DNA from: Nitrospirota bacterium
Lineage (GTDB): Bacteria > JACPQY01
DNA: 64,000 nucleotides
NCBI GenBank assembly: GCA_016180645.1
Contig: JACPAV010000005.1
Location: 122,917-186,916, forward strand
Direction: 5' to 3'
Part shown: positions 7,727 to 22,830 of the stretch, in pieces
Layout of the letters: the number at the start of each line of letters is the position of its first letter
Numbering within the stretch: the stretch's first letter is position 1
Program-made: the position numbers and the translations under genes
Notes under the pieces: model-generated
Told to the model about the DNA's origin: nothing
Database searches by the model: none
Seen by the model: only the letters and a program-made list of their open reading frames with translations

Positions 7727-8959
7727 ATGGAAAAGTGGACAAGTGGACGAGTGCGCGCACATCACGGATGGCCGCTGCTTCACCGCCCGATCACCCGGAC
7801 ACTGGGCCACCTCCAAAAGGATAGCTGCAAAGTGACAGGGGATCTGCTCAACCACCATCGGGAATATCTCGATGACCGCATCGCGCAAGCCCTGTACCGG
7901 AGGGCCATTCGTCGAATCGTTCGACCGGGCGATGTCGTTGTCGACCTCGGAGCGGGCACGGGCATCCACTCCATGGAGGCGTGTAGAGCGGGGGCGAGGA
8001 AGGTGTATGCCCTGGAGTGTGGAGACATGGCCGTGCTTGCGAGGGACATCATCGGCGAATCACCGTTCAGCCGTCGAATCTCCGTCATTCACGAGCACTC
8101 CTCATTCGTGCGGCTGCGGGAAAAAGCGGACGTCATCATTTCCTACCTCGGCCCCAGCGACCTCGTTCGGTCGCTCCCGCCGGCCCGCGCGCGCTTCCTG
8201 CGCCGGGGTGGGCGAACCATTCCCTCCCACCTCCGGTTCCGGTTCGGCCCCGTGGAGGCGCCGGACGTCTACGCGGCGCGAATTGATGCCTGGAGAAGGC
8301 GGAGGGGCGCGGATTTCACGGCCGCGCGCCGATGCGCGGCCAACACGGCCCACACGACCCATTGGCTTCCCTCCCACTTTCTCTCTCGACCTCGCCCCGC
8401 GTTCACCCTCCCGTTGGATCCAGGCGTCCACCGGCCCTGGAAATCCAACGGCACATTCGTTTCCGCGCGCGACGGAACGCTCCACGGGATCGGGCTCTGG
8501 TTCGAGTTCCGGTTGGCCCGGGGGATCTGGCTCTCCACGCGACCCCCGCTCCGGCTGTCACCCGCCGTCCACAGGCACGCCTTTCTCCCGCTCGAACGGC
8601 CGCTGCCGGTGCGGGCCGGGGAGCGCCTGCGGCTCCGTCTGACTCTCCTGCCCGGATTTGAGTGGATGTGGAGATGGAGCGTCCATTCCTCATCTCATGC
8701 GCTTGCCGATCAGTCGTCCTTGGATGGCCTGCTCCTTTCAGCGGATCGAATTCAGGCCGCCGAGGGCTCCGCCCGCACAAGGCTGAACGCCCGCGGTCAA
8801 ATAACACAGTTCGTGCTTGAGAGGTGCCGGAAAGGCCACACCCTGGATCAGATCACCGCGGCCTTGAGCCGCCGCCCTATGACCCTCTCGGGCAACCGCC
8901 GGGAGGCGCTCGACGTCACCCGAAACATTCTCGCCGATTTTGCCCGGCGCCCCAGGTGA
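7727..8959 (+). CDS. PRMT-like SAM methyltransferase with C-terminal PqqD-like domain
   Basis: A 410-residue protein. Residues ~45-200 form a class I SAM methyltransferase resembling protein arginine methyltransferases: HREYLDDRIAQALYRRAI leads into motif I VVDLGAGTGIHSM, and VYALECG supplies the acidic ribose-binding residue. The last ~60 residues (LNARGQITQFVLERC, then TLDQITAALSRR) look like a PqqD/RRE winged helix, the fold that binds RiPP leader peptides; this part is inference from pattern. It heads the plus-strand unit methyltransferase, HPr-kinase-like, cyclase-like, and overlaps the next start by GTGA. A likely role is methylation of a lasso peptide recruited through its leader. GTG at 7832 is an alternative start. 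Confidence 0.7.
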   Translation: MEKWTSGRVRAHHGWPLLHRPITRTLGHLQKDSCKVTGDLLNHHREYLDDRIAQALYRRAIRRIVRPGDVVVDLGAGTGIHSMEACRAGARKVYALECGDMAVLARDIIGESPFSRRISVIHEHSSFVRLREKADVIISYLGPSDLVRSLPPARARFLRRGGRTIPSHLRFRFGPVEAPDVYAARIDAWRRRRGADFTAARRCAANTAHTTHWLPSHFLSRPRPAFTLPLDPGVHRPWKSNGTFVSARDGTLHGIGLWFEFRLARGIWLSTRPPLRLSPAVHRHAFLPLERPLPVRAGERLRLRLTLLPGFEWMWRWSVHSSSHALADQSSLDGLLLSADRIQAAEGSARTRLNARGQITQFVLERCRKGHTLDQITAALSRRPMTLSGNRREALDVTRNILADFARRPR

Positions 8960-9798
8960 AGCCGGAAACCGGGGTCCTGCTTCGCGAACTGGACTCGAAC
9001 GGGGAGGTCTCCTTCGAGGCTCGGGAAGGCCGGGGAGGGTACCGACTCCGATGGCCCCGGCTCGCCACCGTCCACATCACGAAGCGCAAGCAGCGAGTCA
9101 CCGTGATCCCCGAGCGGGGATCCCCCCGCGCCTCGCTTGCTCCCATCCGCCGCATCGCCCGGGCGTATGCGGTCAGCCTCGGCGGCAGGCAGCCTCTCCA
9201 CGCCACCGTGCTCACCGGTCACGGGGGAACGCTCGCCCTCCTCGGGACGCCCGGCGCGGGAAAATCGACACTGGCTCTGGCCATGCTCGACGAAGGTTGG
9301 CGCCTGGTCACTGACGATGTGCTGTTCTACCGGACGCATTCCCGCGCGATCCGACCCGTTCTGCGTCTCCCGATGCTGAAGGTCAGGCCCGACGGCATCG
9401 CGCCGTTCCCGAAGTTCCCCTCGATCCCGCCCCTGAGGCTCCGCGGCAAGCCGCGCTACGATCCTCGTTACGGAAAACTGATGATTCCCCTTCCGAAAAT
9501 CTCTCACGGCGGAAAGATCGATGTGTTTGTTCGCCTGCGCCGCTCGCGCAAGGGGCACATCAGCGGCCGGAGGCTCTCACCGTCCCAATCCACCTTGAAC
9601 CTCATCGTCGCCATGTTCAATGGAGCTCTGCGCCCCCGTCGCGTCCGTATCCGGCAAATCCTGGAGGCCGCATCCCTCGCCTCCAAGGTGCCCGTGTGGG
9701 AGCTCCGATATCCGACGGGAAAGAGACATCTGAAACGCGTGCCGGAGGCGCTGCAAGGCATCCTGCGACAAACTCAAGAGGGCCGAAGCCGGGACTGA
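8956..9798 (+). CDS. HPr-kinase-like protein, candidate lasso peptide kinase (module 1)
   Basis: A 280-residue P-loop kinase of the HPr serine kinase C-terminal type. The Walker A motif is GTPGAGKST near residue 95, followed by WRLVTDDVLFY, the paired-Asp segment typical of the family. Related enzymes in other lasso clusters phosphorylate a Ser of the peptide, the precedent for this call. The GTG start at 8956 overlaps the methyltransferase stop (GTGA), so a longer in-frame extension is rejected. The cyclase-like gene follows after 6 bp. It is clearly paralogous to the product of 18528-19355: both share an LHATV segment before the P-loop and an SPSQ block near the end. Confidence 0.75.
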   Translation: MKPETGVLLRELDSNGEVSFEAREGRGGYRLRWPRLATVHITKRKQRVTVIPERGSPRASLAPIRRIARAYAVSLGGRQPLHATVLTGHGGTLALLGTPGAGKSTLALAMLDEGWRLVTDDVLFYRTHSRAIRPVLRLPMLKVRPDGIAPFPKFPSIPPLRLRGKPRYDPRYGKLMIPLPKISHGGKIDVFVRLRRSRKGHISGRRLSPSQSTLNLIVAMFNGALRPRRVRIRQILEAASLASKVPVWELRYPTGKRHLKRVPEALQGILRQTQEGRSRD

Positions 9799-9804
9799 CC
9801 ACGC

Positions 9805-11469
9805 ATGGGCGGGATCTGCGGCATCCTCAACGCTACCGGCCACGCCTCGACCGGGGATCTGCACACGATGCTGTTCATGCTCTCCCACCGCGGCATCGGC
9901 GCTCCCGGCGCGTGGTCCTCCACCCCCGCGGCGCTCGGTCATTGGGATTCTCACACCCTTGACCCGGAACGTCGGGGGGTCCAGCCCTTTCACGACGGTT
10001 CCAACGGCCCTTGCATCGTCTTCGATGGGCGCCTCGACCACCGGGATGCCTTGCTGTCCGATCTGTGCCTCGATCGCGCAACGGACGTTGAACTCGCGCT
10101 GGCCGCCTACTTGCGTTGGGGAGACGATGCATGGACGCATCTCCTCGGCGACTTCGCGCTGGCCCTCTGGGACCCGCGCGAGGACTGCCTGCTACTGGCG
10201 AGGGACCCCGTCGGCGTCAGGCCTCTCTTTTACTCCGTTTGCCCGACCCGATTCGTTTTCGCCTCGGAGGCCAAAGCGATTCTGGCTATGACGGATGTCG
10301 TTCGCGCTCCGGATCCGGAGAGCATGGCGGAACTGAAGCGATATCGTTTCCGCCGTCATGAGTACACGTTTTTCCAAGGTATCCTCCGGGTGCGCCCCGG
10401 CCAGAGGCTCAGAGTCGACCGGCGAGGCATCGACCGGCGCGCATTCTGGAAGCCCGTGTGCTCCCCTCGCCCGAACGGCATGGAGCCGGAGGAGGCCCAC
10501 AACCAATTCAGAAGACTCTTCATCGAGGCGGTGCGAGACCGGCTTCCGGCCCGCGGAACGGCGGCGATCATGCTGTCCGGAGGTTTGGACTCCTCTTCCA
10601 TTGCGGTGGCCGCCTCCCATGCCCGCGGTCTGAAGACGACCGGCTGCCCCGCGCGTCTGGAAGCCTACACGCTGCTCTGGAAGGATGGAGAGGACGAACG
10701 ACGCCTGAGCCGGATCGCGGCCGAGAAGGCCGGCCTCCACGTATCCCCTGTGATGTTGGACGATGTGGAACTCGATCCCACCCCCGCGTTGGTCTTCGAA
10801 CACGAGACGCCGCTTCTCAACCCCATCGACCAGGTCTACGGCAAGCTGTACCGCGCGGCGGCCGCAGCCGGTCATCGCATCCTTCTGAACGGAGAATGGG
10901 GAGATGACCTCCTCCACGGCGGGGCCTTCCTGGCCGACCTTCTCGTCTCGGGGCGCTGGAAGGCATTCGCAAGGCAGATCCGGGGTTTCCGCGACAACGA
11001 GGGGATCCCCATTCGCTCGATGTTGCGCTACCTCCTCGAATGCCTTCTCCTGCCGCGCCGGGATACCCCGAAATTCGCCACCCACGCTCAAGAGCAAATC
11101 TACGAAGCGGTCTTTGTCCCTCTCAAACTGCTGGCCATCGAGAACCTCGAACGCGGGGCCGCCGCGCATGGCATCGAAATCAGACTTCCCTATCTGGATC
11201 TCCGGCTCATCGAATTCCTGTTTCGGGTCCCCGGCGAATGGCTCGCTGAGGAAGGAATCGGCAAACAACCGCTTCGGAAAGGTTTGGCCGACCTGCTGCC
11301 CGGGGAGATTTCCGGACAGCCCCGCAAAGACAATACGCCCTTGTTCCGCGTGCCCTCGACCTTCCCGGCGTCAGGACGGGAGGGCGATATGAGAGCCTAC
11401 TCTTCCGCCTGGTCCGCCAAGGCGGAAAGCGAATGGCGATCCGTCTGGTTCGGCCGGCCGGCTAAGTAG
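9805..11469 (+). CDS. asparagine-synthetase-like cyclase (lasso C-type), plus-strand copy 1
   Basis: A 554-residue asparagine synthetase B-family protein: N-terminal class II glutaminase fold (MGGICGIL start, FDGRLDHRD, LLARDPVGVRPLFY) and a C-terminal ATP-binding domain with PP-loop SGGLDSSS from residue 258. Residue 2 is Gly, not the nucleophilic Cys of true glutaminases, as in lasso cyclases, which adenylate a side-chain carboxylate and close an isopeptide bond. It follows an HPr-kinase-like gene and converges on the first lasso precursor. It groups with the product of 19352-20986 rather than with the two minus-strand cyclases, so it may carry out a second step. No precursor sits on its own strand. 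Confidence 0.8.
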   Translation: MGGICGILNATGHASTGDLHTMLFMLSHRGIGAPGAWSSTPAALGHWDSHTLDPERRGVQPFHDGSNGPCIVFDGRLDHRDALLSDLCLDRATDVELALAAYLRWGDDAWTHLLGDFALALWDPREDCLLLARDPVGVRPLFYSVCPTRFVFASEAKAILAMTDVVRAPDPESMAELKRYRFRRHEYTFFQGILRVRPGQRLRVDRRGIDRRAFWKPVCSPRPNGMEPEEAHNQFRRLFIEAVRDRLPARGTAAIMLSGGLDSSSIAVAASHARGLKTTGCPARLEAYTLLWKDGEDERRLSRIAAEKAGLHVSPVMLDDVELDPTPALVFEHETPLLNPIDQVYGKLYRAAAAAGHRILLNGEWGDDLLHGGAFLADLLVSGRWKAFARQIRGFRDNEGIPIRSMLRYLLECLLLPRRDTPKFATHAQEQIYEAVFVPLKLLAIENLERGAAAHGIEIRLPYLDLRLIEFLFRVPGEWLAEEGIGKQPLRKGLADLLPGEISGQPRKDNTPLFRVPSTFPASGREGDMRAYSSAWSAKAESEWRSVWFGRPAK

Positions 11470-11520
11470 CAGAGCGTTCAGGCTCTGCAAGCAGATGCGC
11501 GCAAAGACTCTTGTGCGCAT
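11469..11520. terminator. bidirectional terminator-like double hairpin
   Basis: Two hairpins fill the gap between the convergent cyclase and lasso precursor. The first has 7-bp arms GCAGAGC/GCTCTGC (11469-11475 and 11482-11488); the second has arms ATGCGC/GCGCAT (11495-11500 and 11515-11520) extended by an inner CAA/TTG. Neither has a clear U-tract, so this is a moderate call. Confidence 0.45.
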
Positions 11521-11522
11521 CC

Positions 11523-11717
11523 TTAGTTATGGTTGCTGAAGGCGGTCTTGTTCGTCGGATCTTTTTCGATGGATCCCCCTCCCCCGCGCGTCAACGCCGT
11601 CAGATCGCCGTATTCAATCAGCCGTGGAGCGGCGTAGCGTTGCCGAAGGCCGGTTGGACCGGCACTCCGGAGGGATCCAACGCCTGTGCCCTTCGAGCGT
11701 CTCCGCTTTTGAACCAT
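11523..11717 (-). CDS. lasso peptide precursor 1
   Basis: A 64-residue precursor. The leader contains YAAPRLIEYGDLTALT, matching the YxxPxLxxxG recognition motif of lasso leaders and ending with the Thr that marks position -2 of the cleavage site. Predicted cleavage after Thr-Arg gives the core GGGGSIEKDPTNKTAFSNHN. Gly1 can close on Asp9 (9-residue ring, most canonical) or Glu7 (7-residue ring). The ATG at 11717 has a strong GGGAGGAAGC ribosome site. The first 100 bp overlap the 3' end of the cyclase gene in another frame, so the two are probably coupled. An in-frame upstream extension is rejected. Both pathway context and motif support the call. Confidence 0.9.
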   Translation of the reverse strand: MVQKRRRSKGTGVGSLRSAGPTGLRQRYAAPRLIEYGDLTALTRGGGGSIEKDPTNKTAFSNHN

Positions 11718-13414
11718 GCTTCCTCCCAAGAGTTTCTCGCTGCCGCCCGCCAGAGCCTCATGGCCCCGCCGGGAGTTCCGTTCTTGTAGCCACATTCGGC
11801 CAGTTTGTTCGCCCAGAAAGCCGTGGCCACCGCCTTGCTGCGCCGCGCCGCGGTTCGCTCCGGAAGGATGCCTCTCAAACCCTCACGAAGGAGCCGTTTC
11901 CCAACCCCTGCCCGAATCCGCATCCCGGCAGGCATCCTGAATACCAGTTCGACCAAACGCCGGTCCAGAAAAGGAAAACAAACTTCCACCCCTTGATACG
12001 CGGCGCCCATGTCGAACGATTCCAGCGTCATCGTATGGTAGCAGCCGAAGAGGGAGCCGTAAAGTTCCCTTTGATTGCACGTGGGGAAGACCGGACCTCC
12101 GGTGTTGGGCAGAAGCAGATACCGGAGCGCCCGCATCAACGCCGCCCTCCAATTCCCGACGTCGCTTTCCCCGATCCGTCGGATCTCCCGGTAGAACTCC
12201 ACCGGCCGGCCGGCCCGGATCAGGTCCCCAAGAAAACTCATGCCGGCCATCATCTGATCGCCCCAGAATCCGGTGAACACCCTTCGCGCGCCCCGCTTCG
12301 CCGCCGCCCCGAACATGCCGACGTAAAGATTCGGATCCTGCACCTCCACGAACGGCGACTCCAATTCGACCGCAAGCCGGTCCAGATGGTCCGTCGGCCG
12401 GATATCGTCCGCGTCCACCACCGCATTCGGAAGCTTCAGACACGCCGCGGCCGGCCCAAAATGTTCCCTCTCATTCTCAAACGCGCCAAAAACGACCGAC
12501 TGTGTGTGCAGGCGGGATCGGTCCTCACCTTGTGCCACGTGCGAAGCGGCAGCGGCGATGGAGGTGGAGTCCAAGCCTCCCGAAAGCGTGAAGACAACGT
12601 TTCCCTCCTTGGGAATTCTCCGCCGAACGCCCTCCACAAATACCTTTCGGAAACGGCTCAACCACGCGGACTCGCTCAAACCTCCCATGGGCGGCCCGTG
12701 GGGAGGAACCCAATACGTCTCGCACCGCAAACGGTCCTCCTCTACGCGCATTCGCTCTCCGGGCAGAACGCGCCGTATCCCCTCGAAGAAACTGTTCTCC
12801 AGTGCTCGGAACTTGAACCGCTCGTATTCCGCCATTTTCAGTTCGCTTGGCCGGCACGGGACCCCCGGCACGGCCAGAATGGCTTTGGCTTCCGACGCGA
12901 AGATGAATCTTCGCCCATCCCGATAGTAGAAAAGAGGCTTGACCCCCAGGGGATCTCGGGCCAGCATGAGGCGGCCGCGTGGTCCATCCCACACCGCCAG
13001 AGCGAAATCCCCGAACAGCCACTTGGGGAGGTCCCACTCGAACTGCCGATACGCCGCCGCCAGCGCGCCTTCGGTGGTTCTCCTCAGATCCGCCGACGAG
13101 GCGGCCGTGTTCGAGCGGCGCGGGAAACCCTCATGCCCGCGTGCGCTGCCTTCGCGCCCTCGCCCCGCCGCGCGGCTGATCACATCCACGTTGTCGATCC
13201 GGCCGTCCATCACCATACTGACCCCATCGGAGCTCAGCGGGCGGAAGGTCGTCTCATCGACCACCATGAGGGCGTGGACGAGTCCAACGGGGCCATCGCG
13301 AACGATCTTCAACCCGTCGGGCGCCCGGTGCCGAAGGGCATACCCCATCCGCTCCAAATGATCCGCGGGAGCCCCGCGGCCGTCCACCTGGAGAATACCG
13401 GCTATGCCGCTCAC
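11618..13414 (-). CDS. lasso peptide cyclase (asparagine-synthetase family), minus-strand copy 1
   Basis: A 598-residue AsnB-family enzyme that should adenylate the ring Asp/Glu side chain of precursor 1 and join it to the core N terminus. The glutaminase-like domain starts MSGIAGIL with Ser at position 2 instead of catalytic Cys; MVMDGRIDN and LMLARDPLGVKPLFY follow; the synthetase PP-loop is LSGGLDSTS. The start is GTG 13414, chosen because the family begins at this SGIAGIL block. It lies 31 bp after the B1 gene, and its 3' end encloses the start of precursor 1. It is closest in pattern to 21103-22830. The ~35 residues beyond the conserved WEEAWF end are probably there because of the overlap. 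Confidence 0.9.
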   Translation of the reverse strand: MSGIAGILQVDGRGAPADHLERMGYALRHRAPDGLKIVRDGPVGLVHALMVVDETTFRPLSSDGVSMVMDGRIDNVDVISRAAGRGREGSARGHEGFPRRSNTAASSADLRRTTEGALAAAYRQFEWDLPKWLFGDFALAVWDGPRGRLMLARDPLGVKPLFYYRDGRRFIFASEAKAILAVPGVPCRPSELKMAEYERFKFRALENSFFEGIRRVLPGERMRVEEDRLRCETYWVPPHGPPMGGLSESAWLSRFRKVFVEGVRRRIPKEGNVVFTLSGGLDSTSIAAAASHVAQGEDRSRLHTQSVVFGAFENEREHFGPAAACLKLPNAVVDADDIRPTDHLDRLAVELESPFVEVQDPNLYVGMFGAAAKRGARRVFTGFWGDQMMAGMSFLGDLIRAGRPVEFYREIRRIGESDVGNWRAALMRALRYLLLPNTGGPVFPTCNQRELYGSLFGCYHTMTLESFDMGAAYQGVEVCFPFLDRRLVELVFRMPAGMRIRAGVGKRLLREGLRGILPERTAARRSKAVATAFWANKLAECGYKNGTPGGAMRLWRAAARNSWEEAWFKSGDARRAQALDPSGVPVQPAFGNATPLHG

Positions 13415-13445: not shown

Positions 13446-13739
13446 CTATCGGAGGCGAACCAACCCCTTGCCCGCAAGCGTCCGCGCCAGCGTGAGGATG
13501 TCGCGTTGGGCCCGCTCCGCCGTTACGCGGTAGTTCCGCAACAGTCTCCTGCCGATCGCCTCAACGGCCTCCCCGCGCGCGATCCCTTTCCATATCAGCG
13601 CCGCGGCATCTTGGAGACCGTAATACCTTCCCTTCCGGAGGTCCAGAAGAACGATTTCTCCTCCCACTTCGCGCCAGACCACATCCGGGGAGATCATCGC
13701 CCGCGATCCTACGCTGATTCTCCTTTTGTGATGCGCCAT
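13446..13739 (-). CDS. lasso leader-recognition protein B1 (PqqD-like RRE)
   Basis: A 97-residue PqqD-family protein: VVWREVGGEIVLLDLRKGRYYGLQ is cut short here to its hallmarks, a beta-rich start followed by GRYYGLQDAAALIW and the helix-turn-helix AIGRRLL. In lasso biosynthesis this RiPP recognition element binds the YxxPxLxxxG leader and delivers it to the B2 protease. It abuts the B2 stop directly (13740) and precedes the cyclase by 31 bp. It is the only stand-alone lasso-type RRE here, so it probably serves both lasso precursors, whose leaders carry the same YxAPRLIxYGDL motif. Confidence 0.9.
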   Translation of the reverse strand: MAHHKRRISVGSRAMISPDVVWREVGGEIVLLDLRKGRYYGLQDAAALIWKGIARGEAVEAIGRRLLRNYRVTAERAQRDILTLARTLAGKGLVRLR

Positions 13740-14231
13740 TCAGACCGCGCTCGTATTCAGGCGGCTGCCGGCGCGCAGCCGGCTGCCCTTGAGGGTTTCG
13801 CGCGAGGAGGACGCGGCGACTGCCAGAAGGGGCTTCACTCGGCCGAACCGTCCGGCCCGCATCACGTCACGGCTCCCCTCCCGCACCCAGGCATGCCCGT
13901 GCAGTCGACCTCTCTCCGGCCTCGCTGAGAGTCGCAACTCGACTCCAGGCGCCCCTCCCAAGAGCCAGTAGGCCGACAGTGCCCGGCGAAGGCAGGAACG
14001 CTCCCCCGGCACGAGGGGGTCCACCCTTTCAATCCAATGCGTGACCGCCGCAACATCCGAATCGACCGGTGCAGCGTGGTCGGCCCGCCATTGCAAGGCC
14101 CGGAGAATGATTTTGAAGGACACGACTCGGAGGGCCAGTTCGCAGACTCCCACGGCGGCGAGAGCGCGCACCGCGCGTCGCCTCTCGCGGGCTTCCAGGC
14201 GCCGGAAGCGCTGAAGCCGACCACGGCTCAT
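13740..14231 (-). CDS. lasso leader protease B2 (transglutaminase-like)
   Basis: A 163-residue cysteine protease of the lasso B2 family (Transglut_core3 type). The catalytic Cys80 is in GERSCLRRALSAYWLL and the catalytic His113 in LHGHAWV, the usual spacing. It cuts precursors after the leader, just past the conserved Thr. ATG 14231 overlaps the ABC transporter stop as ATGA, which indicates coupling; an in-frame extension upstream is rejected because the family starts here. The Arg-rich C-terminal tail (about residues 148-163) is not part of the conserved fold. It is the only leader protease in the island, so both lasso precursors, and perhaps the radical-SAM precursor, may depend on it. Confidence 0.9.
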   Translation of the reverse strand: MSRGRLQRFRRLEARERRRAVRALAAVGVCELALRVVSFKIILRALQWRADHAAPVDSDVAAVTHWIERVDPLVPGERSCLRRALSAYWLLGGAPGVELRLSARPERGRLHGHAWVREGSRDVMRAGRFGRVKPLLAVAASSSRETLKGSRLRAGSRLNTSAV

Positions 14232-16009
14232 GCCGATGATCGCGCCAGTGCGATCGGCCGAGTCTGGCGTTCCTCGGCCCGGACATGCAGCATCCACAGG
14301 TGGTGATAAAGCCCTCCACGCGCCAGGAGATCGTCATGCGTCCCTTGTTCGATGATTCGGCCTGCATCCATCGCGAGAATAATATCCGCGTGTCGGATCG
14401 TGCTCAAGCGATGCGCCACGGCGAGAACGGTCCTCCCCCTCCCCCATTCGGCGATCGCGTCCTGCACTCGCCGGTCCGTCTCGCTGTCCAGAGCGGACGT
14501 CGCTTCATCCAGAAGGAGAACCCGGGGGTCCTTCAGAACGGCCCGCGCGATGGCAATCCGCTGCCGCTCTCCCCCGGAAAGCATCACCCCCCTCTGTCCG
14601 ATCACGGTGTCCAGCCCTCGCGGCAGCGCCCGGATGAATTCCGTGACGCACGCGATTCGACAGGCATCCTCAATCTCTTTCTCGGTGGCGTCCAGCTTTC
14701 CATAACAAAGGTTTTCGCTCACCGTTCCCCCAAAGAGGATCGTCTCTTGAGGAACCCACGCGATCTGGCGATACAGACTTTCCTTCCGAACCGTCCGAAT
14801 ATCCTCGCCGTCCATCTCGATGCTCCCCGCGGACGGTTCGTAGAACCCGTGGATCAGTTGGATGAGAGTACTCTTCCCCCCGCCCGTCGGACCGACGACC
14901 GCCGCCACGCTCCCCGCCGGAATGTCCAGGCTCACGCCTCGAAGCACCGGGGGACCGTCGGGGTAGGAAAACTCGACCTCCCTCACACGAATTCGACCTC
15001 GCAGGCGTGGAAGGGCTCTCGCTTCGGTCGGCTTCGTCGGGTCTCCCGGTGTCTCCAGGAGCGAGAGCACACGCTCCGAGGCGCCTTGCGCCTCCTTCAG
15101 ACGACCCACAAGGCTGGTGGCGGTGATGAAGGGTCCCATGAGGAGACCGCCATACAGGGCGAAGGCCACCAGATCTCCCGCGCTCATCCCCCCCTCGATG
15201 ACCTGCACACCTCCGTACCACACCATCCCCGCCGCTCCCATCACCCCCAGGAGCGTCAGCCCCGGGGCCAGGATGGCATTCACCGCCGCCCTGCGGAGAG
15301 CAAATCGGACCCCTTCCCACACTTGGGTCCCGAACCGTTCCGCCTCGAATTCTTCCCGTTGGAACGATCGCACGGCGCGGATGGAGGAGAGCGCTTCCTC
15401 CGCGGTGGAAAGCGCCTCGGCCGAGCGATCATGGTAGTCGCGCGAGAGCCGCCGCATTCTCCGGCCGGACCACTTCGCCGCCACCACAACGGCCGGGACG
15501 ACCGCCAGAACCCAGAGCGAGAGGCGCGCGTTGAGATAGATCAGCAGGGCCGTCGCCCCCGAGAACGTTACCGCATGCCTGGCCAACTCCGAAGGCACGG
15601 TTTCCAGGAAGCTCTGGAGGGCGCCCACGTCGTTGGAGAGGCGCGACACGAGCTCTCCCGTCTTGTGACGCGAGAAATAGTCGAACGGTTGCGCCTCCAA
15701 CCGCTCGAAGAGCCGGACCTTGAGCCGCGCGCCCACCCGCTGCCCGAACCGAACAACCAAGTAGGCATGACCCACTCCGAATCCGGCCTGGAGAATGTAG
15801 AGGGCGCCGACCACGGCCATCACGCCGGGAAGCGCGGCGAGATTCTTCTCCGAGGCGATGACATCCACCAAGCGCCTGGCCTGCCACAAAAGAACCAGAT
15901 TCGCGCCGGCGCCGAGCATCTGCAGGGCCGACGCCGCCAAAAGGGAGGGGGTCTCGGGCCGAACGAACGGAACGAGACTGCGCAGAAATCCCGGCAAACT
16001 TCCGGTCAA
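14228..16009 (-). CDS. ABC transporter (fused permease-ATPase), RiPP exporter
   Basis: A 593-residue half-transporter of the MsbA/lasso D type. Six membrane helices span about residues 20-310, followed by an ATPase with Walker A VVGPTGGGKST, signature LSGGERQRIAIARA and Walker B VLLLDEATSALD. It lacks an N-terminal C39 peptidase domain, so it exports but does not cut leaders; this agrees with a separate B2 protease. The TTG start at 16009 overlaps the stop of the radical-SAM precursor gene as TTGA, coupling exporter translation to that precursor. It is the only exporter in the island and probably carries the lasso and the radical-SAM products. Confidence 0.9.
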   Translation of the reverse strand: MTGSLPGFLRSLVPFVRPETPSLLAASALQMLGAGANLVLLWQARRLVDVIASEKNLAALPGVMAVVGALYILQAGFGVGHAYLVVRFGQRVGARLKVRLFERLEAQPFDYFSRHKTGELVSRLSNDVGALQSFLETVPSELARHAVTFSGATALLIYLNARLSLWVLAVVPAVVVAAKWSGRRMRRLSRDYHDRSAEALSTAEEALSSIRAVRSFQREEFEAERFGTQVWEGVRFALRRAAVNAILAPGLTLLGVMGAAGMVWYGGVQVIEGGMSAGDLVAFALYGGLLMGPFITATSLVGRLKEAQGASERVLSLLETPGDPTKPTEARALPRLRGRIRVREVEFSYPDGPPVLRGVSLDIPAGSVAAVVGPTGGGKSTLIQLIHGFYEPSAGSIEMDGEDIRTVRKESLYRQIAWVPQETILFGGTVSENLCYGKLDATEKEIEDACRIACVTEFIRALPRGLDTVIGQRGVMLSGGERQRIAIARAVLKDPRVLLLDEATSALDSETDRRVQDAIAEWGRGRTVLAVAHRLSTIRHADIILAMDAGRIIEQGTHDDLLARGGLYHHLWMLHVRAEERQTRPIALARSSA

Positions 16010-16179
16010 TCTCGGGTCTTGACGCAGCTCGCGTTCCCAACCGTGCGGCAGGTGAAACCCGGAGATCGCGAGGAGTCACAGACGATCGCCAACGCCTCGA
16101 CCATCTTGCTGTAGACGAGTTCGGGTTTCTTATACGGCTTCCGGCCTATCGGTGATTTCCGATCTTGATTCTTCATCAT
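16006..16179 (-). CDS. three-Cys RiPP precursor for the adjacent radical SAM enzyme
   Basis: A 57-residue peptide gene. It has a basic leader with RKPYKKPELVYS, a Y-x-K-P-E-L motif that fits PqqD-type recognition, then a short hydrophobic stretch VEALAIVC and a Cys-containing C terminus with Cys34, Cys44 and Cys52 (spacings 9 and 7). It lies 13 bp after the radical SAM gene and ends inside the TTG start of the exporter, the classical position of a substrate gene. A GAAGGGA Shine-Dalgarno precedes ATG 16179; a second ATG follows at 16176. Thioether or carbon-carbon crosslinks at Cys-flanked residues are plausible but unproven. Confidence rests on position, leader motif and translational coupling. 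Confidence 0.75.
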   Translation of the reverse strand: MMKNQDRKSPIGRKPYKKPELVYSKMVEALAIVCDSSRSPGFTCRTVGNASCVKTRD

Positions 16180-16192
16180 TCGATCCCTTCGG

Positions 16193-17329
16193 TTATCCGG
16201 CTGTTGAATTGTCGCATGTTACCTGTCCGCAGGAACATTCGCTGCGGTTTCCAGATCCCTCCGTCAGCCCCGCGGCTCGCAGGGGAGCTGAGGTCCTCCC
16301 CTCTTTGCTCTGAACGGCCTGATACACAACCTCCGCCTGCTCACAACAGGTCGGCGAAGGCCCCTTGAGATCCCCGGTCTCCAGATGGGCCACGCCGGTG
16401 CATCGGCTGCAATAATCCTTCACGGAGCAACTCCGGCAGGTTTTCAGGTCCCCGAATCGAAGCGCGCGGATCTGCTTCAACTGTTCTTCTCCCCACAGAT
16501 CTCCGAAGGAGCGTTCCCGCAGGTTTCCGATGGCCACCCGCATCGCCACACACGGCATGAGATCTCCATAGGGAGAAATGTACGCGGAAGACGACCCCGC
16601 GCCGCACAGCGGATCGTCATTCTGATAGTCCCTGAGCACAAACTCTTCCGCAAATCCGGGGGTTGTCTCCTTGATGAAGCAGGCGAGCTCCGGAGGCATG
16701 AGACGGAGGCTTTGCGGCGATCGGTCGCCGTTGTCCTTCGGCACGATCGAAAGATCGCTTCGCAACTTTGCGCCGATCTTTTCCCCCAAGGCCATGACGT
16801 CATGGTACTGATCCTGATTCTGTTTCATGATCGGCATGTTCATGTACGTTCGGACGCCCCGTTCATTCAAGAGGCGAATTCCCCGCACGGACTTCTCGAA
16901 TGAACCCTTCCTGAGCGTGATCGAATCGTGAATGTCCGGATGCGCTCCATAGATGCTCACCAGAACCGCGAGGGGCTTCCAAGAGGCGATTTCGTCGGCC
17001 AGCGTTCCGTTCACCATGGTCGCAGTCGTCAGCAGGCGAAGGGCGAAGCCCAGTTCGCGCGATCGCCGGGCGATCTCGATGAAATCTCGCCGCATGAAGA
17101 TCTCCCCCCCGCTGAATGTGATGAACAGCGTGCCCGCACTCGCGAGCCCCTCCAACACGCCATACACCTGATCCGTCGTCAATTCCGGCCGGTCCATGAC
17201 CACGCGGTAGCAATGCACGCAGTCCAGGTGACACACGTTCGTGACGTCCCAGTGCACGGTGAGAGGGATGGCACGCTCATGCGCCTTGTCCAGAATCGTC
17301 TCGTAGTAGTCCAGAGTCTTCACGGCCAT
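16193..17329 (-). CDS. radical SAM/SPASM peptide-modifying enzyme
   Basis: A 378-residue radical SAM enzyme. The 4Fe-4S site for SAM is CHLDCVHC (CxxxCxxC) near residue 33, with SGGEIFMRRD as the GGE motif. A SPASM auxiliary-cluster domain follows: CGAGSSSAYISPYGDLMPC, then CRSCSVKDYCSRC and a CC pair; an extra Cys-rich tail (CSCGQVTC) ends the protein. Enzymes of this class crosslink or epimerise RiPP precursors. It is preceded by a PqqD-like protein and followed by the small Cys-containing precursor. Start ATG 17329, just after the PqqD stop; ATG 17350 is an in-frame alternative. Confidence 0.9.
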   Translation of the reverse strand: MAVKTLDYYETILDKAHERAIPLTVHWDVTNVCHLDCVHCYRVVMDRPELTTDQVYGVLEGLASAGTLFITFSGGEIFMRRDFIEIARRSRELGFALRLLTTATMVNGTLADEIASWKPLAVLVSIYGAHPDIHDSITLRKGSFEKSVRGIRLLNERGVRTYMNMPIMKQNQDQYHDVMALGEKIGAKLRSDLSIVPKDNGDRSPQSLRLMPPELACFIKETTPGFAEEFVLRDYQNDDPLCGAGSSSAYISPYGDLMPCVAMRVAIGNLRERSFGDLWGEEQLKQIRALRFGDLKTCRSCSVKDYCSRCTGVAHLETGDLKGPSPTCCEQAEVVYQAVQSKEGRTSAPLRAAGLTEGSGNRSECSCGQVTCDNSTAG

Positions 17330-17330
17330 G

Positions 17331-17621
17331 TCATGTGCCCCCTTCGGCAACCAGGAGTTTCTTGGAGGTAAGGGTGGCCAGCAGTTCTTCCACGTCTTTC
17401 AGCGCCGTCTCCGCGTCCACCTCGAAGGCGTCGCTGAGTCGTTGGGCCATGGCGCCGGCCGTCATCGAACCGTCCGCCAGCGACCACACAAAACTTCCCG
17501 TCTCGTTCAGGATGTGAACCTCCTGTGTCGAAGGATCGACGATCACGGCTTCTCCGTCCACGATCCGATGCGCCACATCGGGGGAGCGGCGGATCGTGGC
17601 TACGCCATTCCCCGCGCTCAT
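17331..17621 (-). CDS. PqqD-like peptide chaperone for the radical SAM enzyme
   Basis: A 96-residue PqqD-family RiPP recognition element with the standard pattern: an N-terminal beta wing (GEAVIVDPSTQEVHILN), then ETGSFVWSLADGS and the helix pair ending LTSKKLLVAE. It should bind the leader of the three-Cys precursor and hand it to the radical SAM enzyme. It is distinct in sequence from the lasso B1 protein. ATG 17621 overlaps the upstream kinase stop as ATGA, and its own stop lies 1 bp before the radical SAM start. Confidence 0.9.
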   Translation of the reverse strand: MSAGNGVATIRRSPDVAHRIVDGEAVIVDPSTQEVHILNETGSFVWSLADGSMTAGAMAQRLSDAFEVDAETALKDVEELLATLTSKKLLVAEGGT

Positions 17622-18346
17622 GCCGTGGCCTCCTCGAGAAACGGCTCGATGAGGTCACTCAAGTTCAGCGTCAACTTGAAGGCCGGTACCCGTTCCAGAA
17701 ACCGCAGCATCCGTTCCATCAATTGGTCCGGAGTCACCGCGGCGCCTTCCACCTGGGGGCGCAGGAGGAGGTCCGCCACGGCGCGCGCGGGCGAGAGTCT
17801 TTCGCGCCTGGATTTCTCCCCTTGCGCGAGCACAAATACCGCGTGGACGGGGTACCTTGGACCCTCCAGCGCCACGGGGGCCCAGGCCAGAGGACGTGAG
17901 TCCGTGAGCCCGTGAGCCCGTGAGCCGGAAGGATGGATGCAGACCAGGTCGTCGTGGAGAATGGGCCGGGCGAGGCGCGAAAGCGTGGTGGTCTTCCCCG
18001 CTCCGGAAGGGCCGCAGAAGAGGGTGGCTTCACCGTTCTTCATGGCGGCTCCGGCATGCAGGACGAAACCGCCCTCCCTATATGCAAGCACGGTCCTCAC
18101 GATCCGAAAGGCGTTCGTGCGCCCGAAGGGCTCAAATCCCGGCTGCACGTTGAACTTCGCCAAACCGGCCTCCCAGTCCATCCGGCCCGCATAGTGCTCG
18201 GTCTGAACGACGAGCGAATGGGTTGAATCTTGAATGACCGGGATGGCCGCCCCCGAATCCGGCTCGGCCGAGATCACGATCTGCACGGCCCCTGCCCTCG
18301 TACCCTGCTCCGAATCAAACCCTCTCACCTCCCATGGCACCATCAT
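17618..18346 (-). CDS. HPr-kinase-like P-loop protein heading the RiPP operon
   Basis: A protein of up to 242 residues with the HPr-kinase C-terminal fold: Walker A CGPSGAGKTTT near residue 111 and PILHDDLVCI, the paired-Asp segment. It diverges from the two plus-strand kinases. Its association with a PqqD-like protein and radical SAM enzyme suggests peptide phosphorylation or a chaperone-like ATP use; this is inference. The first codons overlap a possible -10 box (TATGAT), so translation may begin further in, for example at GTG 18286. An 8-bp tandem repeat (17895-17926) sits inside the coding region just after the HDDLVCI segment and adds a variable loop. Confidence 0.75.
   Translation of the reverse strand: MMVPWEVRGFDSEQGTRAGAVQIVISAEPDSGAAIPVIQDSTHSLVVQTEHYAGRMDWEAGLAKFNVQPGFEPFGRTNAFRIVRTVLAYREGGFVLHAGAAMKNGEATLFCGPSGAGKTTTLSRLARPILHDDLVCIHPSGSRAHGLTDSRPLAWAPVALEGPRYPVHAVFVLAQGEKSRRERLSPARAVADLLLRPQVEGAAVTPDQLMERMLRFLERVPAFKLTLNLSDLIEPFLEEATA
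17895..17926. repeat. octamer tandem repeat CGTGAGCC x 4 inside a gene
   Basis: Four 8-bp units (first CGTGAGTC, then three CGTGAGCC) lie within the kinase coding region. Because the period is 8, loss or gain of one unit would shift the frame; three units would restore it. Confidence 0.75.
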
Positions 18347-18527
18347 AGGAGAAGATCACCCCGGTGTCCAACCATGGATGGTGCGGCACCGATCCTGCCA
18401 AGCGAGCCAGGGAAGGCGAGCGCTGAAGATCGGGGCCAGCCATGGATGGTGCGGTACTTGGCGATACAAGGCAGACAGGAAGTCTGCCCTTTCAACTCTC
18501 TCGACCCGGTTGTGTTATCCCTCTCCC
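18342..18527. promoter_or_regulatory. divergent regulatory region with repeated operator-like motif
   Basis: This 186-bp region separates two divergent kinase genes. The 15-mer CCATGGATGGTGCGG occurs twice (from about 18373 and 18440). On the minus strand a weak sigma-70 match is TTGGAC (18371-18366), 18-bp spacer, TATGAT (18347-18342). A hairpin GGCAGAC/GTCTGCC lies at about 18472-18490, upstream of the plus-strand kinase. The duplicated motif could be a regulator-binding site for both operons. Confidence 0.4.
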
Positions 18528-19355
18528 ATGCGGTATTCAAGCTCGATGCCGGGAGTCTCAAGCAACGGGAGCAAGCGCGTGCTGGCCCGCCACAGGTTTC
18601 CCAGCGGCCGGATTGGATTCGAGGCCTTCGAAAACCGGCAGCGATACGAACTCCGGTGGGCGGGGGCTGCGCGCGCCCTTGTGCCGAAAACCGGCCTACG
18701 CGCGCGGGTCATTCCGCAGCCCAACGCCCGCCCCATCACGCTGGCGGTACTCCGGCATATCGTGGCGGCCTATGCATCGAGCCTGAGGGGAGTGGAATCC
18801 CTGCACGCCACGGTCGTGTCGAATCATCATGGCGCGATCGCTCTACTGGGACCCTCAGGTGAAGGAAAATCGACGCTCGCGCGCCACTTCATGATGCGGG
18901 GTTGGACCCTGCACACGGACGACATCCTCTACCTCAGATTCTCCCAACGTTCCGTGTGGCCTGCCCGCCGCCGCGCCTGGTTCAAGGTCGCCCCGGAGTC
19001 AGCGCTCCGTGCGCGCGGGGACCGGGACTATGACCCGAACTTCGGAAAGCGAATTACCCTTCTCCCGCCTCCTAAAGCGGCCAAGCCCATTCGGGCCTTC
19101 ATTCGGTTGAGCCGCCGGCGCGCTTGCCGAATTCATGCCACACCCGTGAGCCCATCCCAAGCAGCCCTCCACCTCATGGCCAACGCCTACAACGACATTC
19201 TTTGCCCACCCCCCGTCCTGGCGCGTCAGTTCCGTTGGTCCGCCCGGCTGGCCCAAGCGGTCCCGCTCTGGCAGCTCGAGTACCCGTCGGGCACACGCCA
19301 CCTGGGTCGAATCGAGCTGTCCTTGGCGAACCTGCTCAAAAGCCTCCCACGGTGA
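18528..19355 (+). CDS. HPr-kinase-like protein, candidate lasso peptide kinase (module 2)
   Basis: A 275-residue P-loop protein paralogous to the kinase at 8956-9798: the two align from the N terminus (FPSGRIGFEAFE against NGEVSFEARE) to the end. Walker A is GPSGEGKST, and the paired-Asp segment is LHTDDILYL. It begins a two-gene plus-strand unit; its stop overlaps the cyclase-like start as GTGA. Unlike module 1 there is no methyltransferase in front. ATG 18528 is chosen because upstream in-frame sequence is not conserved with the paralogue; ATG 18546 is an alternative, and neither has a good ribosome site. Confidence 0.7.
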   Translation: MRYSSSMPGVSSNGSKRVLARHRFPSGRIGFEAFENRQRYELRWAGAARALVPKTGLRARVIPQPNARPITLAVLRHIVAAYASSLRGVESLHATVVSNHHGAIALLGPSGEGKSTLARHFMMRGWTLHTDDILYLRFSQRSVWPARRRAWFKVAPESALRARGDRDYDPNFGKRITLLPPPKAAKPIRAFIRLSRRRACRIHATPVSPSQAALHLMANAYNDILCPPPVLARQFRWSARLAQAVPLWQLEYPSGTRHLGRIELSLANLLKSLPR

Positions 19356-20986
19356 CCGGAATCTGCGGGCTTCTCAGTCCCCGCCCTGAACAGGCCTCGG
19401 GGAAACTTTGGAACATGCTGTTCATGCTCAGCCATCGAGGAAACGGCATTCCTCAAATGATCCATCGGCCCCCGGCGGCTTTGGGCTTGCTTTCGCAAGA
19501 CGCAACATCCAACAGAATATCTTTGCGGAGCCGTACGACATGCCTCTTCGACGGTCGCCTGGACAACCGTCGGGAGATGCAATCGGCCTTGAACACGCAT
19601 GGAGCGACGGATGCCGACGTCGTTGGCGCCGCGTACGACCGGTGGGGACCCTACGCATTCCGAAAATTGAGGGGAGAATACGCGCTGGCACTCTGGGACC
19701 CGGAAAACCGGCGCCTGTATCTCGCGCGAGACCCGGTCGGTCTGCGCCCCCTCTACTATGCCTGCTCGCACGACACCCTCTCCTTCGCCACCGAGGCCAA
19801 GGCCCTGCTCAGCCTGCCTGACCTTCCTCGAAAGCCGGACACGGAGCGACTCCATGAAATGAACACAGGACGCTACCGATCAAGCGACCGAACCTTCTTC
19901 GAGGGCGTCCAAAGAATCGTCCCCGGCGAGTTCCTTCAGGCGACCCGGGAAGGAGTTGCGCGCGGGCGGCTGTGGGACCCCGATCTCCGATCATCCGTCC
20001 GTTTTCCCTCCCCCGAAGGCTATCGCGCACAATTCCGCGAGCTGTTCTTCAACGCCGTGCGGCGGTGCATGCCGCGAAAGGGAACCGTGGGCGTTCTCCT
20101 GTCGGGAGGCATCGATTCTTCCTCTGTAACCGCCGTTGCCGCCGAAATCGCGCGCCGTGAAGGATCGGGCGTTTCGGTCGAAGCCTTCTCGCTCTATTCC
20201 GACCGCTTCCCCGACGAGCGACTCTATTGCGAGGAGGTCGTTCGGACGGCCGGAATCCGGGGCCACGCCATTCGAGCCGACGACATCAGTCTTTCGCATG
20301 ATCTGTCACAGCGGCTCTTTGAACAGGAAATCCCGCCCGTTCCGCCCGAAGCCAATCTTTTTGACCGCGTATACAAAGAGGCCGCCCGCCGAGGAGTGCG
20401 GGTGTTACTGAGCGGCCACTGGGGAGACCAGGTCATGCTGAGCCACGCTTTGCTCGCGGATCTCCTTGCCTCGGGTAGGTGGTTCGAAGCCTGGAAATAT
20501 GTGCGCGGCTACCGTCGCCAGGATCGCGCCGCGGCAGGCCCCCTCCTCCGGTGCGCGGCGTCCTTTCTCGTCCTGCGACGACGAAGCACGCCGGACTTCC
20601 CCAGCCGCGCGCAAAAAGAGGTCTATGAAAACGTCTTCGAGCCGGTCAACGTGCTCTTCCGCGAAGCTCTTGAGCTCGCATCCGCCCACCGTGGCCTTCG
20701 GTTTCAGATGCCGTTTCTCGACCTCGACCTGATCGAATTCGTCTTGGCGATACCCGCCACGCAGCGGGTCAGCAACGGCGTCGGAAAACAACTGCTGAGG
20801 GAATCCCTGTCCGATCTCCTGCCCGCCAGGGTGCGCGAGCGAAAGGACAAACGGGACTACACGCTGTCCATTCCGCCCAGGCTTGCCCAAGCCGGATTCA
20901 GCGGCGACACCCCCGACGACCTTTCGGAGCACTGGTTCCGGCATGCGCGGGAGCAGTGGTCCAAAGCATGGTTCGACAACCCCTGA
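19352..20986 (+). CDS. asparagine-synthetase-like cyclase (lasso C-type), plus-strand copy 2
   Basis: A 544-residue AsnB-family protein paired with an HPr-kinase-like gene. It begins MTGICGLL with Thr at position 2, so it lacks the glutaminase Cys; LFDGRLDNRR and LYLARDPVGLRPLYY mark the N domain and LSGGIDSSS (Ser251) the PP-loop. It shares with copy 1 the early MLFMLSHRG segment that the minus-strand cyclases lack. GTG 19352 overlaps the kinase stop (GTGA). It converges on lasso precursor 2 with a 54-bp gap, the same layout as at 9.8-11.7 kb. Function: amide or isopeptide bond formation on a peptide, substrate uncertain. Confidence 0.8.
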   Translation: MTGICGLLSPRPEQASGKLWNMLFMLSHRGNGIPQMIHRPPAALGLLSQDATSNRISLRSRTTCLFDGRLDNRREMQSALNTHGATDADVVGAAYDRWGPYAFRKLRGEYALALWDPENRRLYLARDPVGLRPLYYACSHDTLSFATEAKALLSLPDLPRKPDTERLHEMNTGRYRSSDRTFFEGVQRIVPGEFLQATREGVARGRLWDPDLRSSVRFPSPEGYRAQFRELFFNAVRRCMPRKGTVGVLLSGGIDSSSVTAVAAEIARREGSGVSVEAFSLYSDRFPDERLYCEEVVRTAGIRGHAIRADDISLSHDLSQRLFEQEIPPVPPEANLFDRVYKEAARRGVRVLLSGHWGDQVMLSHALLADLLASGRWFEAWKYVRGYRRQDRAAAGPLLRCAASFLVLRRRSTPDFPSRAQKEVYENVFEPVNVLFREALELASAHRGLRFQMPFLDLDLIEFVLAIPATQRVSNGVGKQLLRESLSDLLPARVRERKDKRDYTLSIPPRLAQAGFSGDTPDDLSEHWFRHAREQWSKAWFDNP

Positions 20987-21040: not shown

Positions 21041-21181
21041 TCAATCCGACCCCGTGGCCCTGGTTTTGTTCGTTTCACTCTTAACCGTCCCCTTGGCCTT
21101 CGTCAGTGTCCGAAGGTCGCCATAGGCGATGAGGCGTGGCGCCTTGTAGGTTCTTCGCCGCTTCCTTTTGTTCCGAACCAT
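21041..21181 (-). CDS. lasso peptide precursor 2
   Basis: A 46-residue precursor with a very basic start (MVRNKRKRRR) and leader YKAPRLIAYGDLRTLT, nearly the same as precursor 1. Cutting one residue past the conserved Thr gives core AKGTVKSETNKTRATGSD, with Glu8 placed for an 8-residue ring closed by Ala1. If the site shifted by a residue the ring would no longer be canonical, so this register is preferred. A strong GGGAGGAGAT ribosome site precedes ATG 21181. The first 79 bp lie inside the 3' end of the cyclase gene, as in module 1. Both cores share TNKT in the tail. Confidence 0.88.
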   Translation of the reverse strand: MVRNKRKRRRTYKAPRLIAYGDLRTLTKAKGTVKSETNKTRATGSD

Positions 21182-22830
21182 ATCTCCTCCCAACGTTCTC
21201 TCGTGAAAGCCCTCCAAGGCCTCATGGCTCTCCCCACGGGCCGGCGTGGGAGCCCGGCTTCTTCCTGCATGGCCTCCCAGAAATCGGTCCAATCGCCCTT
21301 GCCCTTTCGGCTGGCGATGAAATCCGGGAGGATGCCGGCCAAGCCATCCCTCATCAATCTTTTTCCGATCCCATCGCGCACCCGCTCTTCCGCCGGAACG
21401 GCGAACGCAAACTCCACCAGGCGCCTGTCGAGGAACGGATACCGCACCTCGATCCCGCGGAACGCGGCGCCCAGATCGGCCGACTCGAGGGCCATCAGAT
21501 TGTACAAGCCAAACAGGGCGGAATGCAATTCCCTCTGATTGCACGTGGGGTAGAAATGCCCGCCCAAGCCGGGAAGCACAAGAAACCGCAACATCCGGCG
21601 GAGGCTTTCAAGCGTGCCGCCCGTGTAGGTGCGGCTGAGAATACGGAATTCCTTCCAAAGCGCCCCCCACTGCCCCGAGCGGAGCAGATCACCCAGGTAG
21701 CCGGTCCCCATCATGGCCTCGTCGCCCCAGAGACCCACCAGCAGAACGCGGCCGAGATCCGCCGCGCGTCGAAACAATCCCTCGTAGTAGTTGGGGTCGT
21801 ACACTTCCACAAAAGGCGTTTCAAGTTCATACGCCAGTCTATCCACATGCTCTCTCAACCTGAAGGCTGAAGCATCCACCACGATATTCGGCAGGTTCCA
21901 CATCTCGGCCAGCTTCCCGAAATAGCGGGACTCATCCGGAAAACGCCCGGGCACGCCTGAAATCGTGTGCAGCCCAAGCCCATGCCCCCCCTGTCCATCC
22001 GCCCCGCGCTTCGCGTGGAGGGCGGCCGCCGTGATGGACGTGGAATCCAGGCCACCCGAAAGCGTGACCACCATGTCTCCCTTTCCGGGCATCCTGCACC
22101 GGACGGCCTCCATGAACAGCTTTCTGAATCGCCTGAGATACACGCGACGCCCGTCGAGCCTGATCGGTTCGCACGTTGGCGGATGCCAGTACGAGGCGCG
22201 GAGGATCCTGCCTTTTTCTATCCCAATCGCCTCCGCCGGGAGAACCCTCCGAATGCCTTCGTAGAAGGTGAAATCCATGCCTCGAAACCGAAAGCGGTCA
22301 TACTCCTCGAGCCTGGATTCGCACGGCCGACAAGGAACTCCGTCCACCGCCAGAATCGCCTTTGCCTCGGACGCAAAGATGAACCGTCTCTCCTCCACCC
22401 TGTAGAAGACCGGCTTCACCCCGGCCGGATCCCGCACAAGCAACAATCTCTCCCGATTTGCATCCCAAATCGCGATCGCGAAGTCGCCCAGGAGCCACCG
22501 GGGGAAGTTCTCTCCCCAGCGCCCATATGCGCTCCAAACCACTTCCTCCGTCGTCTCCGCCCGATCCCCGAAGCGCCTGCGCAGAACCTTCTTCAAAAGG
22601 TCCGCATTGTCGATTCGGCCGTCCATGACCAGAGTGATCCCATCCCGCGAGATCGGACGCGGCGTGGTCCCGTCCACCTTCACCATGAGATGACCGAGGC
22701 CCGCCTCCCCCCCCGCGAAGACGGATGAACCGTCCGGTCCACGATGGGCGAGAGCGTCCAGCATCGGTTGCAGGTTCATCTCGCCCACGAGCGTTCCGTC
22801 GAAATGCAGAATCCCGGCTATGCCGCTCAT
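21103..22830 (-). CDS. lasso peptide cyclase (asparagine-synthetase family), minus-strand copy 2
   Basis: A 575-residue AsnB-family enzyme starting MSGIAGIL, with Ser at position 2, LVMDGRIDNADLL, LLVRDPAGVKPVFY and PP-loop LSGGLDSTS at about residue 255. It is the likely cyclase of precursor 2, whose gene begins inside its 3' end. It closely parallels 11618-13414. No B1, B2 or exporter gene accompanies it, so it must rely on those at 13.4-16.0 kb. Downstream of it on the minus strand is only the precursor; upstream (86 bp) is the exopolysaccharide kinase gene. Confidence 0.9.
   Translation of the reverse strand: MSGIAGILHFDGTLVGEMNLQPMLDALAHRGPDGSSVFAGGEAGLGHLMVKVDGTTPRPISRDGITLVMDGRIDNADLLKKVLRRRFGDRAETTEEVVWSAYGRWGENFPRWLLGDFAIAIWDANRERLLLVRDPAGVKPVFYRVEERRFIFASEAKAILAVDGVPCRPCESRLEEYDRFRFRGMDFTFYEGIRRVLPAEAIGIEKGRILRASYWHPPTCEPIRLDGRRVYLRRFRKLFMEAVRCRMPGKGDMVVTLSGGLDSTSITAAALHAKRGADGQGGHGLGLHTISGVPGRFPDESRYFGKLAEMWNLPNIVVDASAFRLREHVDRLAYELETPFVEVYDPNYYEGLFRRAADLGRVLLVGLWGDEAMMGTGYLGDLLRSGQWGALWKEFRILSRTYTGGTLESLRRMLRFLVLPGLGGHFYPTCNQRELHSALFGLYNLMALESADLGAAFRGIEVRYPFLDRRLVEFAFAVPAEERVRDGIGKRLMRDGLAGILPDFIASRKGKGDWTDFWEAMQEEAGLPRRPVGRAMRPWRAFTRERWEEIWFGTKGSGEEPTRRHASSPMATFGH

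Follow-up and report, generated by a model that had tools for sequence, protein, structure and literature searches.

Lasso peptide biosynthesis is understood to require one peptidase and one cyclase. In the known chemistry, B1 delivers the leader, B2 cleaves, and the cyclase C adenylates an acid and closes the ring; in tailored members, the HprK-like kinase PadeK phosphorylates a C-terminal serine and the nucleoside triphosphate (NTP) transferase PsmN adds a hexose (PMC9266682, PMC13352647). Clusters of the paeninodin/pseudomycoidin type have discrete B1 and B2 proteins, an HprK-like kinase with an H-K-D-D motif, an NTP_transf_5 protein, an MsbA-like exporter and a YxxP leader (PMC9266682, PMC13381572), features shared by the two-module lasso locus that we describe here, at positions 7727-22830 of a 64-kb window (the whole stretch of DNA analyzed, to which all coordinates refer) from contig 5 of a 4.7-Mb genome that is 97% complete.

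The locus contains four lasso-cyclase-like proteins, two lasso precursors and one B1-B2-exporter core. A first-pass annotation had proposed two cyclase-like enzymes per precursor; we confirmed this in the window and found the same doubling in a second phylum. Our search of the open-access literature turned up no lasso precursor with two cyclases and no published precedent for this variant of lasso cluster.

The plus strand carries, in order, a PRMT-like methyltransferase, HprK1 and C1p, and further on HprK2 and C2p. On the minus strand the order of transcription is HprK3, B1b, a radical SAM gene, A3, the exporter, B2, B1a, C1m and A1, with C2m and A2 in the later block. Much of the anatomy in the first-pass annotation was borne out: all four proposed cyclase-like genes are intact, glutaminase-dead AsnB-like open reading frames (ORFs), an HprK-like gene lies directly upstream of both plus-strand ones, the methyltransferase assigned to the first copy precedes its HprK-cyclase pair, and there is one B2 and one MsbA-like exporter. 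Its single B1 was an error, as two PqqD genes are present (13446-13739 and 17331-17621, both minus strand), one of them adjoining the radical SAM gene. The features of the two modules and their shared core are:

8956..9798, plus strand: HprK1, lasso-type HprK-like kinase (TIGR04352, E 1.3e-12); its GTG start overlaps the methyltransferase stop
9805..11469, plus strand: C1p, plus-type lasso cyclase paralogue, copy 1 (NF033535, 281.7 bits, best NCBIfam match)
11494..11521, no strand: 11-bp GC-rich hairpin, terminator-like, between the convergent C1p and A1
11523..11717, minus strand: A1, predicted lasso precursor (NF033521, 25.4 bits; cut-off 19)
11618..13414, minus strand: C1m, minus-type lasso cyclase, copy 1 (NF033535, 283.9 bits)
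13446..13739, minus strand: B1a, PqqD/RiPP recognition element (RRE) leader-binding protein (PF05402, 56.4 bits; NF033530, 52 bits)
13740..14231, minus strand: B2, transglutaminase-like leader peptidase, the sole one in the genome (NF033537, 42 bits; cut-off 33)
14228..16009, minus strand: MsbA-like ATP-binding cassette exporter (PF00664 and PF00005)
18546..19355, plus strand: HprK2, lasso-type HprK-like kinase, copy 2 (TIGR04352, E 1.3e-10)
19352..20986, plus strand: C2p, plus-type lasso cyclase paralogue, copy 2 (NF033535, 273 bits); its start overlaps the HprK2 stop
21041..21181, minus strand: A2, predicted lasso precursor (NF033521, 20.5 bits; cut-off 19)
21103..22830, minus strand: C2m, minus-type lasso cyclase, copy 2 (NF033535, 328.6 bits)

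The four cyclases fall into two types. C1m and C2m are 49% identical, C1p and C2p 39%, and plus-type and minus-type proteins 31-37%. All four, together with the two cyclases of G001 (the only other sampled genome of the window's phylum), have lost the glutaminase cysteine, with MSG, MGG or VTG (M[SGT]G type) at the N-terminus, and carry DGR in place of NGE, while the SGGxDS PP-loop (SGGLDS in C1p), a later GD and the active-site lysine are kept in all six. Fifteen cysteine-bearing AsnBs in the same alignment have MC[GA] (or VCG) and NGE. The lasso cyclase model NF033535 is the best NCBIfam model for all four window proteins at 273-329 bits, under its cut-off of 525; this model carries the NCBIfam type 'exception', and the cyclases of L111, a B1-B2-C-C-A cluster, also score below it, at 455-458 bits. 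In two trees, plus and minus types are sister clades (support 99/98 and 100/100); a split supported at 100/100 separates them, with the lasso cyclases, from asparagine synthetases, among them the genome's own cysteine-bearing AsnBs. The plus-strand pair falls outside the ordinary asparagine synthetases, as sister group of the minus-strand lasso cyclases. A tree of the synthetase domain alone kept the two types together (100/99) and recovered the minus clade at 100/98 and the plus clade at 78/27. By motif and phylogeny, the four proteins are AsnB-fold lasso-type cyclases with a predicted dead glutaminase and intact ATP site.

The precursors lie within the 3' ends of the minus-strand cyclase genes, where the first-pass annotation had placed them: A1 (...YAAPRLIEYGDLTALTR/GGGGSIEKDPTNKTAFSNHN, the slash preceding the predicted core) overlaps C1m by 100 nt and A2 (YKAPRLIAYGDLRTLTK/AKGTVKSETNKTRATGSD) overlaps C2m by 79 nt, each in another frame. 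Codons for a conserved W-E-E near the cyclase C-terminus supply the GGGAGGA ribosome-binding site of both, and the Trp codon that follows the ATG start is in a different frame. The overlap recurs in G001, where CTG or GTG stands at the corresponding position. As plus-type cyclases terminate soon after the W-E-E region, the minus-type tails look like overprinted extensions.

Both precursors exceed the curated lasso-leader cut-off (NF033521, 19). Each has a YxxPxL...G leader, a small core residue 1 and an acid at core positions 7-9 (E7 and D9 in A1, E8 in A2), and the locus encodes the B1 (PF05402, 56 bits) and B2 (NF033537, 42 bits) of a lasso cluster. Across all 64 kb, the strict leader motif is confined to the A1 and A2 sites, and a precursor-family profile run over the genome finds these two alone above noise, so that the calls are not chance; no further family match above noise was found in either the window genome or G001. 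A weak profile match, G000:C15 (E 0.05), was dropped because a precursor-like ORF was not seen there. From these features both modules are predicted lasso peptide clusters.

We compared the locus with other genomes, working from metagenome-assembled genome assemblies. G001 is a groundwater genome deposited as 'Nitrospirae bacterium NC_groundwater_665' (contig JACPQY010000003.1; 84% complete). It carries a single copy of the block, in which HprK and C on the plus strand converge on A, C and B1 on the minus strand; B2 was not found in this 84% complete assembly. Of the two outcomes that the first-pass annotation named as refuting it, a plus-strand pair inside the ordinary asparagine synthetases and a block missing from every related genome, neither was seen. 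The G001 block is flanked by the same HD-domain (37% identity) and Wzc (51%) genes as copy 2, which, judged from these neighbors, occupies a site common to both genomes. Plus and minus types had separated before the two genera diverged, and each genus retains both. The block duplication that the first-pass annotation had read from similarity within each pair is supported, for the window's lineage, by the sister grouping of C1m and C2m (98/94). It stands less firmly for the plus pair: a C1p-C2p clade is not rejected by the approximately unbiased (AU) test (p 0.18), and the best unconstrained tree joins C1p with the plus-type cyclase of G001. A first HprK-based scan of genome contigs gave no match, and a scan with the plus-type N-terminal motif returned nothing beyond G001 and a Terriglobia AsnB from a polysaccharide locus.

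Among 95 genomes of a second phylum, that of G355, we found five clusters with two lasso-type cyclases close together (L111-L115). Their order is B1-B2-C-C-A-HprK in L111, L112 and L114, and B1-B2-C-A-C-HprK in L113; four of the five have one intact precursor, and L115 is frameshifted. The cyclases of L111, L112, L114 and L115 form an upstream and a downstream clade (100/100 each), and the L113 pair is a recent duplication (100/99). Across the pairs of the window, G001 and L111-L114, SGGxDS and the downstream G[GA]D are kept, the glutaminase cysteine and NGE are lost in all, and the active-site lysine is kept in all but L113_2051, where it is Arg. A common origin for the plus type and the tandem cyclases of the second phylum was rejected by AU tests, which excluded trees that join the plus type to one or the other tandem clade (p 1.5e-5 and 1.5e-4), indicating that the doubling is convergent. 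On these phylogenies, two-cyclase lasso clusters have at least two separate origins, with L113 adding a third if it is included. Among the lasso loci examined in the remaining sampled genomes, none has two cyclases; the phyla of G365, G189 and G349, with 2-8 genomes each, were too few to contribute.

The peptides of these modules resemble one another. We counted seven two-cyclase modules (A1, A2, G001 and L111-L114), leaving out L115 for its frameshifts and L124 because it ends at a contig edge, and numbered core residue 1 as Tyr+17 from the leader tyrosine. The ring acid is at position 8 in 6/7 precursors (A1 has E7 and D9), and 5/7 cores have exactly one acidic side chain, at that position. 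At least two Lys/Arg with at most two bulky residues occur in 7/7 two-cyclase and 2/18 one-cyclase precursors (Fisher p 7e-5), a contrast that is a lead and not a test, since it was framed post hoc and draws on several related sequences. Every two-cyclase precursor has K-[ST] in its tail. Residue -2 of the G001 precursor is Ala, not Thr, and its C-terminal residue, alone among the seven, is Ser; A1 ends in Asn and A2 in Asp.

We tentatively favor, at somewhat less than even confidence, a reading in which the two diverged module copies each use two specialized cyclase paralogues on one precursor, the minus type closing the macrolactam and the plus type performing a second ATP-dependent acylation. 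B1a would bind the YxxPRLxxYGDL leader, B2 would cut after Thr(-2)-X(-1), and the minus-type cyclase would adenylate the core acid (position 8, but 7 or 9 for A1) and close the N-terminal macrolactam, a step we assign to this type because its gene is grouped with those for A and B1 (and also B2 in copy 1). Copy 2 would borrow B1, B2 and the exporter from copy 1. Most conjecturally, the plus-type paralogue, made with the HprK-like kinase, would carry out the second acylation on the same peptide, the most economical reading of a complete ATP site retained beside its partner through long divergence. The second bond would likely join the C-terminal carboxylate to a core lysine amine or to an external amine; since most two-cyclase cores have one acidic side chain, the C-terminal carboxylate is the likely second donor. 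One precursor type per module, with no orphan precursor elsewhere, is in keeping with this scheme, as are the ATP-site motifs kept by both members of each pair, the age and joint retention of the plus and minus types, the separate recurrence in the second phylum and the shared character of the seven cores. In a more specific form that we consider unlikely, the second amide would lock the threaded tail, for example by joining the C-terminal carboxylate to Lys, giving a doubly closed lasso (bicyclic or catenane-like) that compensates for missing bulky plug residues.

Several observations weigh against the favored reading. Clusters L123 and L125 of the second phylum have the same lysine-rich core type with a single cyclase, so the peptide does not strictly require the second one. 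The second acid of A2 lies only at its C-terminus, A1 has two candidate ring acids, and the C-terminal serine that is the paeninodin HprK substrate site is absent from A1 and A2. The products of both modules are predicted.

The main competitor, somewhat unlikely in our estimate, is an obligate heteromeric cyclase, in which both paralogues form one enzyme making a single macrolactam, with acid activation by one subunit while the other shapes or holds the core. Both genera of the window's phylum indeed keep the two paralogues together, as do four genomes of the second phylum, where they are neighboring ORFs on one strand, and the upstream clade has lost a K-x-D-[FWY]-T loop kept by most single cyclases, which suggests division of labor. 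However, ATP-site motifs are intact in both members, L123 and L125 process the same core type with one cyclase, and the two cyclase genes of the window and of G001 are transcribed toward each other, which rules out a common operon transcript.

Redundancy, with both paralogues having the same activity and giving a dosage effect or two ring isomers (such as E7 and D9 of A1), seems quite improbable. Lasso genes duplicate readily, as the recent L113 pair illustrates, and A1 offers two possible ring acids, but the plus/minus and upstream/downstream pairs have diverged (to 31-37% identity in the window) with catalytic motifs kept in both members, pairs are conserved in separate lineages, and 5/7 cores have a single acid. 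We regard as very improbable that the plus-strand HprK-C unit belongs to a different pathway, with a precursor of its own, and only happens to adjoin the lasso module. Its opposite strand, own kinase and, in copy 1, methyltransferase would fit, and HprK-C pairs occur alone in Azospirillum; against this, the same convergent block is conserved in G001, the second phylum has both cyclases in one gene run with a single precursor, and a separate precursor was rejected because the window has no additional leader motif and neither genome gives another precursor-family match above noise. A reading of the plus-strand proteins as ordinary asparagine synthetases or polysaccharide amidotransferases located here by chance has negligible probability: they match PF00733 and TIGR01536, but this identity was rejected on motifs (no Cys1, DGR for NGE), on NF033535 as best model and on their place on the lasso side of the tree at 100/100.

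The remaining features of the region, several of them (the NTP_transf_5, radical SAM/SPASM, third HprK-like and cysteine-containing ORFs) absent from the first-pass annotation, are:

6302..7507, minus strand: NTP_transf_5 nucleotidyltransferase-like protein, a PsmN-type tailoring enzyme of lasso clusters (PF14907, 115.6 bits), divergent from the methyltransferase
7727..8959, plus strand: PRMT-like S-adenosylmethionine methyltransferase with a C-terminal helical extension (PrmA/PRMT matches); the true start may be ~7823
16006..16179, minus strand: A3, precursor-like ORF of another ribosomally synthesized and post-translationally modified peptide (RiPP), not lasso, with a YxxPxL leader and Cys-containing core
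16193..17329, minus strand: radical SAM/SPASM peptide-maturase-like enzyme (PF04055, 76 bits; PF13186, 47 bits)
17331..17621, minus strand: B1b, second PqqD, adjoining the radical SAM gene (PF05402, 64.6 bits)
17618..18346, minus strand: HprK3, HprK/ScmC-like member of the radical SAM cassette (TIGR04249, 27.9 bits)

HprK1 and HprK2 are 40% identical, and the H-K-D-D catalytic motif of PadeK/ThcoK-type lasso peptide kinases (PMC9266682) is kept in all 13 HprK-like proteins compared, these two included. With Asn and Asp at the C-termini of A1 and A2, the kinase target there cannot be a C-terminal serine; the invariant K-[ST] of the tail is a candidate phosphorylation site. NTP_transf_5 homologues are present in lasso clusters L017 and L111-L114. 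The methyltransferase is modeled with a PRMT fold: its AlphaFold model (mean predicted local distance difference test score 70) matches PRMT6 (E 3.5e-24). The double-E loop is replaced by ADVIISYLGPSD, and, read by eye, is present in the paralogue L071. We do not claim an RRE domain in its C-terminus, where the model has three helices and profile comparison gave a probability of 17%. In another phylum, many lasso clusters with one cyclase (L017, L117, L119) have a PRMT-fold methyltransferase adjoining HprK and cores with GPMMM-type tails, and at L018 (7936-10513) a PRMT-like methyltransferase, HprK-like kinase and PqqD occur without a cyclase, possibly a non-lasso peptide pathway.

On the minus strand, 16006-18346 holds the radical SAM/SPASM enzyme, a PqqD, the HprK/ScmC-like protein and the 57-aa cysteine-containing A3 with its YxxPxL leader, for which we found no curated family match. 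The cassette is probably a separate, second RiPP pathway nested in the lasso cluster, and it probably shares the exporter. A related radical SAM-PqqD-HprK cassette occurs in L080 (5305-7864). Between the divergent HprK3 and HprK2 lies a 22-nt direct repeat, CCAACCATGGATGGTGCGGCAC (18368-18389 and 18436-18457; 91% identical copy, 68 bp apart), a possible operator. Elsewhere, lasso cluster L017 has a 530-aa gene without a lasso-protein match (3546-5138) between its second B1-B2 pair and its cyclase, and L059 has two cysteine-containing lasso-like precursors of YxKPxLxRFGSxRELT type (3109 and 9559) with one cyclase.

Two cyclase paralogues are thus kept for one precursor, and the doubling occurred separately in two phyla with the same unusual lysine-rich peptide type. 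This convergence suggests one of two things, an additional amide-forming step or a lasso cyclase that is heteromeric, and each could be tested with a handful of genes; the former, if true, would yield a new kind of mechanically interlocked peptide.

Set against the paeninodin/pseudomycoidin type, the window differs in having two cyclase paralogues per precursor, a precursor that follows and overlaps the cyclase gene, no C-terminal serine in A1 or A2, and a plus-strand half that forms a separate convergent unit. L123 and L125 share with it the lysine-rich core type, leader and HprK-like kinase, in B1-B2-C-A order, and unlike it have one cyclase. LPP RiPPs beside paeninodin-like lasso clusters likewise bring two RREs and a second RiPP pathway into one lasso locus, with HprK and an NTP transferase; their second pathway, however, uses a signal peptidase and gives linear products where the window has a radical SAM enzyme, and, unlike the window, they have no second lasso cyclase (PMC13381572). 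The radical SAM, PqqD and HprK-like set at 16193-18346 resembles the SynChlorMet cassette (ScmC/ScmD/ScmE), with matches all far under the curated cut-offs and a different precursor.

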